Below the pieces are notes generated by a model, which ran no database searches, was not told the DNA's origin, and was given only the letters and a program-made list of their open reading frames with translations. A stretch of 5,810 nt of DNA. Origin: Gemmatimonadota bacterium (GTDB lineage Bacteria > JBHIER01 > G020348925). The DNA lies in NCBI GenBank assembly GCA_020348925.1, contig CP070758.1:2139498-2145307 (forward strand). Reading direction: 5' to 3'. The position numbers and the translations under genes were made by a program. This document shows, in pieces, positions 2,444 to 3,546 of the stretch. Each line of letters begins with the position of its first letter. Positions within the stretch are counted from its first letter, which is position 1.

Positions 2444-2587
2444 CTTTCCGTTCCTGTAGCTTTATTTGTAATAGTTATCAACCTTCTCTTAACGTTTCTA
2501 ACGTATACATTTTTCATATCCGTTCCCGTGCCATGTATGAGCTGTGTTGTCCCTCAGTAGTATTCCAAAATAATAGTAGTGTTTAAA

Positions 2588-2640
2588 GACTCCGTTTCCA
2601 AAAAATGGTTCCAAAATATACAAAAAAATTCCACGGAGTC
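2588..2640. repeat. 8-bp inverted repeat enclosing an AT-rich, TTCCAAAA-bearing loop
   Basis: GACTCCGT at 2588-2595 is perfectly repeated in inverse as ACGGAGTC at 2633-2640. The 37-nt interior is A-rich. The octamer TTCCAAAA occurs at 2596-2603 and 2609-2616, and again outside the arm at 2563-2570. It lies 145-200 bp upstream of the ABC operon start. There is no T-run after either arm, so it is not a standard intrinsic terminator. A protein-binding site or a small relic element is possible; function is unknown. Confidence 0.45.
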
Positions 2641-2800
2641 AAGGGAAAACCGGTCCGCGAGGCGGAGGAAGGCGGTAGAAAAGTAACATTATGTGTGTAT
2701 TGAGGATAAGATCGGGAGAAGGCGGAATGAGAAAAAATGTGAAATCGCGACGGCACAGAATCCGTGGCTCTCGTCTCAAAAGGTCGGCTTGAGCCAGCAT

Positions 2801-3033
2801 GTCATTGCCAGCAGTACCAAACGAAATGTTAGAAGCCGCTTCTGACAGGTTGTTACAGACTCAGGACCATCACCAGATTTCTCCACGAAGTTTGCCTCGG
2901 ACTTGTCCCGAGGGTGCGGTCTCACCCCAACTTCTCAAGCGGTCCTTGCATGAGAATTCCAAGGCGAAGCTTTCTTCTACGACATGAAGTTGCTTCATTC
3001 TACCATGCATCGCACGGCCCTCCTCGCTATGAC
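2801..3033. repeat. Decayed intergenic repeat bounded by imperfect inverted ends
   Basis: The left end GTCATTGCCAGCAG (2801-2814) and the reverse complement of the right end, GTCATAGCGAGGAG (3020-3033), match at 11 of 14 positions. Both resemble the GTCATTGCGAGGAGC start of the dispersed intergenic repeats common in many Gram-negative and candidate-phylum genomes. Near the right end, TTGCTTC (2990-2996) matches the inner part of that repeat (GAAGCAA on the other strand). A 6-bp hairpin CCTCGG/CCGAGG sits inside at 2895-2913. Open frames across it read like repeat translations and are not genes. Calling it a relic of that repeat family is inference from consensus resemblance. Confidence 0.4.
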
Positions 3034-3167
3034 GAGATGAATGCAGGACCATCTTGTTTCGAACGCGTCGAGCGTCGTGGTGGTGAAGCGGTCATCTCCT
3101 GGACACCTGGGGTATGGGGAACGAGATGTTGCGCTCCGGAAGATGTGGACCATCGTATTTTTAAATC

Positions 3168-3197
3168 TTGCATGAAACAAACGGTTTTTCGTATATT
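3168..3197 (+). promoter_or_regulatory. Candidate sigma70-type promoter of the histone gene
   Basis: TTGCAT (3168-3173) and TATATT (3192-3197) are separated by 18 nt, close to the TTGACA/TATAAT consensus. Transcription would begin near 3204 and give a leader of about 43 nt before the ATG at 3247. It is the best-spaced promoter I found in the window, and it is consistent with a single-gene unit ending at the terminator at 3510-3546. Confidence 0.5.
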
Positions 3198-3246
3198 AAG
3201 AAACGGTGCTTGTGTTATGAAGGCTTCAAATCAAAGGAGGGCTATT

Positions 3247-3459
3247 ATGAACGAAGCGCAGGGAGGGGAGATTCTGGTTGTTGTCTCCAAGCTGAAAGGA
3301 TATATTCGTTCAGCGTCGGGGATGAACACTTCGGCGAACGTCGTCCCGGTCTTATCCGACATAATCCGCCGACTGTGTGACCAGGCCATAGAGAGAGCGA
3401 ATATGGCGGGCCGCAAAACCGTCATGGACAGGGATTTCACATCGGACGAGGTATCGTAG
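3247..3459 (+). CDS. Bacterial histone-fold DNA-binding protein (70 residues)
   Basis: A small single-domain protein that matches the histone fold in length and pattern. Helix 1 is about SKLKGYIRSAS (14-24); loop 1 is GMNTSA (25-30); the long helix 2 runs about 31-54 with regularly spaced hydrophobics (V32, V35, L36, I39, I40, L43, A47, I48, A51); loop 2 is AGRKTV (54-59); a short helix 3 region follows from MDRDF (60-64). The AGRKT loop and an Asp seven residues after the Arg (R56, D63) reproduce the R-x-T element and Arg-Asp salt bridge of archaeal histones such as HMfB. Helix 3 is shorter than in HMf, as in known bacterial histones. Counting residues gives nine Lys/Arg and nine Asp/Glu. 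The start at 3247 is chosen because AAGGAGG (3234-3240) lies 6 nt upstream; an in-frame ATG at 3217 lacks such a site. The expected role is DNA compaction or bending in the nucleoid, as a dimer. The fold is a confident inference; DNA binding is not shown. Confidence 0.85.
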   Translation: MNEAQGGEILVVVSKLKGYIRSASGMNTSANVVPVLSDIIRRLCDQAIERANMAGRKTVMDRDFTSDEVS

Positions 3460-3509
3460 CGAGCTTTTGCCGGATTGTATTCGCCTCAGCGATCGGACAG
3501 AATCAAGTG

Positions 3510-3546
3510 GAGGCTGCCTTGTGTTTCGGGCAGCTTCTTTCTTTTA
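3510..3546 (+). terminator. Intrinsic terminator after the histone gene
   Basis: The nine-base arms GAGGCTGCC (3510-3518) and GGCAGCTTC (3529-3537) pair, with one G-U, around a 10-nt loop. A T-rich tract TTTCTTTT follows. It lies 50 nt after the histone stop codon and marks the end of that transcription unit. A candidate promoter for the downstream receptor overlaps its T-tract. Confidence 0.75.

Follow-up and report, generated by a model that had tools for sequence, protein, structure and literature searches.

The window, that is, the whole stretch of 5,810 nt analyzed here, contains a histone gene that stands alone between an ABC transporter cluster and the gene for a TonB-dependent receptor (Table 1). 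Bacteroidota are the best-known source of gene sets of the GldA/GldF/GldG type. No RNA elements or tRNAs were found within the window, and the approximately 800 bases between the ABC operon and the histone gene (2444 to 3246) had no recognizable genes or Rfam RNAs. The frame running into the histone ATG happens to be stop-free, giving 208 open codons. An N-terminal extension or ZZ domain encoded in this open frame was considered and rejected, because a strong Shine-Dalgarno sequence lies upstream of the ATG at 3247; the extension was also countered by the lack of a Pfam domain and by the similarity to a second genomic copy of the gene, which ends about 35 bases upstream of the start. A 181-aa upstream frame contained no domain except a sub-threshold histone match.

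Table 1 Positions of the histone gene, its signals and neighbors, and the second histone gene
Feature	Position	Strand	Remarks
ABC transporter cluster	1–2443	−	Related to GldA/GldF/GldG, all below equivalog cut-offs; divergent from the histone gene
Leader plus Shine-Dalgarno, CTTCAAATCAAAGGAGGG	3224–3241	+	CTTCAAAYCRAAGGAGGG matches only two sites in the genome, each upstream of a histone gene; the other site is L002 1466–1483
Shine-Dalgarno, AAGGAGGG	3234–3241	+	Strong; upstream of the ATG at 3247
Histone gene, 70 aa	3247–3459	+	ATG start, open frame, TAG stop at 3457–3459
Terminator-like hairpin	3509–3538	+	Some 50 bases downstream of the stop; stem of 11 pairs followed by TTCTTTT
TonB-dependent receptor	3698 onward	+	Downstream neighbor of the histone gene
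Second histone gene, MSDVQQGGEVLVVVSKLKGYIRTKSGMNTSGNV...	C1:2952610–2952822; L099 about 7611–7823		Hairpin and signal-peptidase-like gene downstream

A previous reading of the sequence alone had credited the gene with a strong Shine-Dalgarno sequence, a promoter-like element of its own, and an intrinsic terminator. The first of these was borne out. A scan of the + strand directly upstream of the gene found no sigma-70-like promoter, and apart from a TATATT the promoter claim was not supported. For the terminator, hairpins were no more numerous around the gene than in shuffled sequences (one found, with a mean of 1.4 expected); therefore, its support comes from its position and from the hairpin behind the second copy, which occupies a similar place but has a different sequence.

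A phmmer search matched residues 7–67 of the product to HBb (Bd0055) of the predator Bdellovibrio bacteriovorus, a histone of solved structure (8cmp), with an E value of 4.7e-12. Because of this match, the low dN/dS ratio between the two genomic copies (about 0.08), and the 227 related loci found, the ORF is not a chance one, and we concluded that 3247–3459 is a real gene encoding a histone fold. An AF2 model of the monomer, built with 39 related sequences, reached a pLDDT of 88 (more than 90 within the core) and showed three helices, at residues 13–24, 32–53, and 61–64. The earlier reading of a functional, stand-alone histone-fold gene in a bacterium is supported by the solved homologue, the confidently predicted fold, and the purifying selection between the copies.

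That reading had also aligned the protein with the archaeal HMf-type histones, in helix lengths as well as in motifs. The motifs are present: AGRKT occupies residues 54–58, and R56 and D63, the RD clamp, are seven residues apart. Loop 2 and the RxTxxxxD motif are common to this protein and to HMfA and HMfB (1a7w, 1b67, 5t5k), as is the histone fold; this likeness is generic, and HBb is the closest match. In a profile search of solved structures, HBb was found with an E value of 3.2e-24 vs. 5.9e-4 for HMfB. The profile suggested as a check, PF00808 (CBFD_NFYB_HMF), scored 17.3 bits, below its gathering cut-off of 21.4, and the NCBIfam archaeal histone model scored 22.1 bits against a cut-off of 50. 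The top Foldseek matches to the AF2 model were HBb structures (9ezz, E value 1.1e-5, rmsd 1.1 Å, 50% identity), followed by HLp and HTkC, with HMfB far lower at 0.023. VIA-align gave a Z of 9.3 for the HBb structure 8fvx and 6.2–6.5 for HMf; values of this size are modest on their own, but their ranking matches the sequence evidence.

The helix lengths did not agree with those of HMf. From the Ser of L1 to the Gly-Arg of L2 there are 26 residues, the same as in HBb, vs. 30 in HMfB; consequently, the central helix α2 is four residues, or one turn, shorter than in HMfB. The third helix is a single turn in the AF2 model, as in HBb. In addition, M53 stands at the place of the histidine that HMf uses for tetramer formation, H49 (ANMAGRKT compared with ARHAGRKT in HMfB), and all 80 close relatives kept from a survey of genomes are bacterial. 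Given the helix lengths and the missing tetramer histidine, we rejected membership in the HMf type, and it is extremely improbable that the protein is an archaeal nucleosomal histone acquired by a bacterium and forming hypernucleosomes. The sighting of a bacterial histone was right, and its alignment to the archaeal type was wrong.

The protein belongs to the HBb family. Our preferred reading, to which we assign a probability of about 0.88, is that it is a "bacterial dimer" histone with a truncated α3, the class whose type member is HBb/Bd0055, and that it acts in the nucleoid as a DNA-bending dimer. The class is that of Schwab et al. (2024), and its features were compared with those of the protein. 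HBb is its best solved relative, both by sequence and by profile; it has a single histone fold with a truncated α3 and a shortened α2; and it carries R56, K57, T58, and D63 of the RKTxxxD motif together with K15 and K17 of the α1 lysines, R21 being in the place of the third. A short central helix and a short α3 are also the features that separate HBb from HMfB according to the authors of the HBb structure (PMC11317129).

Ten DNA-contacting residues have been listed for HBb (PMC11317129). Eight of them (S9, K10, K12, N22, S24, K52, T53, and R57) are identical here, as S14, K15, K17, N27, S29, K57, T58, and R62; the other two, K16 and T8, are changed to R21 and V13. Residues S14, K15, T28, T58, and D63 were invariant in an alignment of 39 sequences. 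The dimer-core residues L31, I35, L38, V11, and I59 of HBb correspond to L36, I40, L43, L16, and F64, all still hydrophobic. At about 50% identity, HBb (8cmp, 8fvx, 9ezz, 9f0e, 8fw7) and the window protein share the RD clamp and the lack of a tetramer histidine in addition to the helix features above. They differ in A54 for D49, in an ending of MDRDF for MARDI, in the longer N-terminus of the window protein, and in that the window genome, unlike the case of HBb, has a second close copy.

The truncated α3 and the RKT or RTT of loop 2 are also found in the face-to-face histones HLp (9qt0) and HTkC (9f2c), the next structural matches after HBb. We regard it as very unlikely that the protein is of this kind and, like Leptospira HLp, forms tetramers wrapping about 60 bp of DNA. 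In HLp the contacts between dimers are made by a network of R49, N53, and R55; both arginines have counterparts here (R50 and R56), but N53 is replaced by A54, and S52 by M53. Of the R and N at the dimer–dimer contact, which bacterial dimer histones both lack, the protein thus lacks N and has R. Identity was 38% to HLp and 32% to HTkC vs. 50% to HBb, and the E values for HLp were weaker. Because R50 corresponds to a tetramer-contact residue, the sequence does not settle the oligomeric state; with R49 and R55 of HLp kept but N53 lost, a dimer appears more likely than a tetramer.

As a bacterial dimer histone, the protein would act as proposed for HBb. Two of the 70-residue chains would be joined head to tail by way of the long central helix of each, and the resulting handshake dimer would grip successive minor grooves without sequence preference. 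The grip would be provided by the N-termini of the α1 helices (S14, K15, K17, and R21) and by the paired L1–L2 loops (N27, T28, and S29 with K57, T58, and R62). Such a dimer would bend DNA, and hence compact it, beside proteins of the HU/IHF family, for which the genome has four genes above the cut-off. Histone and HU also coexist in Bdellovibrio (PMC10627809). The binding mode of HBb was read as a straight sheath in one paper (PMC10627809) and as DNA bending in a later one with solution data (PMC11317129); because of those data, the bending mode was adopted here. Over its full length the chain carries a net charge of about −0.5, which is unusual for an abundant nucleoid protein; the charge of the core is +3, the family median.

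Across the 84,980 species genomes scanned, 227 related loci were found, of which 80 were kept. Judged by their record titles, the relatives come from Bdellovibrionota, Planctomycetota (many of them anammox bacteria), Myxococcota, Nitrospirota, Desulfobacterales, Gammaproteobacteria, Eisenbacteria, Dadabacteria, Neomarinimicrobiota, Acidobacteriota, and others; their genomes are mostly MAGs, and isolated odd cases may be binning errors. Almost all of the relatives kept end in GRKTVMDRDF or a near variant, and the near-invariant ending occurs in about ten phylum-level groups. The search of solved structures returned no member of this group; HBb itself reads GRKTVMARDI. Gene neighborhood gave no clue to function, because nothing beside either copy of the gene recurred across the relatives, save scattered ABC ATPases; other clades of relatives have neighborhoods of their own. 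GRKTVMDRDF also closes the histone domain of a ZZ histone (Bd3044-like) in the same large clade as the stand-alone MDRDF histones, a Bdellovibrio MAG protein (L083, 4707–5174) with a cysteine-rich, ZZ-zinc-finger-like N-terminus. The window protein, with its 70-aa gene and strong Shine-Dalgarno sequence, is without such a finger.

In a midpoint-rooted tree of 85 short sequences (68 columns), in which most forks are unresolved, the two copies from the window genome paired (98/43) and nested in a group of 38 rows (98/88) made up mainly of planctomycete, nitrospirota, and desulfobacterial proteins. HBb was on a long branch outside the strongly supported MDRDF clade. The window genome was the sole representative of its phylum, a poorly sampled lineage, among the genomes compared. 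To a specialist, one more member of a family characterized in 2023–2025 will be of little surprise; the locus adds a histone pair from a phylum otherwise unrepresented in this comparison, points to a widespread group ending in GRKTVMDRDF, and lends weight to the idea that dimer histones have a patchy distribution over many bacterial phyla, beside HU.

The genome is a single contig of 5.04 Mb with two histone copies, and a profile search found no credible histone beyond these two. The two proteins were 81% identical over 64 residues. With a dN of 0.12 and a dS of 1.54, both copies have been under long-lasting purifying selection. Similarity at the DNA level extends from the upstream boundary given above to near the stop; only the leader and Shine-Dalgarno sequence, the coding region, and a terminator-like hairpin are common to both loci. 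The leader CTTCAAAYCRAAGGAGGG was kept in both copies despite near-saturated synonymous divergence, and may act in translation or autoregulation of both genes. As a family-wide element the CTTCAAA leader was rejected, TTCAAA being found upstream in only 2 of 85 loci of relatives.

The possibility of high expression had been raised for the window copy. Its codon adaptation was 0.675, compared with 0.763 for the second copy and 0.76–0.81 for the HU-like genes, and was exceeded by 98% of 62 background genes and by about 94% of their 70-codon pieces. The background consisted of seven 20-kb samples of the genome. Given the weak codon bias of this genome, the low value is only a hint, speaking against high expression of the window copy, which probably has the lower expression of the two. 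It also had the longer branch in the tree (0.38 vs. 0.13), and its residues N52 and M53 were absent from all of the relatives compared, the second copy being more typical of the family. The idea that the window copy had lost basic residues was dropped, since its core charge is the same as that of the second copy.

The low codon adaptation, long branch, and private residues would also fit a specialized or regulatory histone-fold partner that is off general chromatin duty, for example, in a heterodimer with the second copy. The retained DNA-contact residues and family-typical core charge speak against this, and we consider it quite unlikely. An unlikely but related idea is that the diverged copies work together as paired histone variants, one constitutive and the other conditional or heterodimer-forming; if true, such a pair would give bacterial chromatin interchangeable subunits.

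Two copies are not unique to the window genome, because the Bdellovibrionales MAG HKST-UBA28 also carries two. Its histones (L074 and L077) are both of the MDRDF clade and are not closely paired in the tree.
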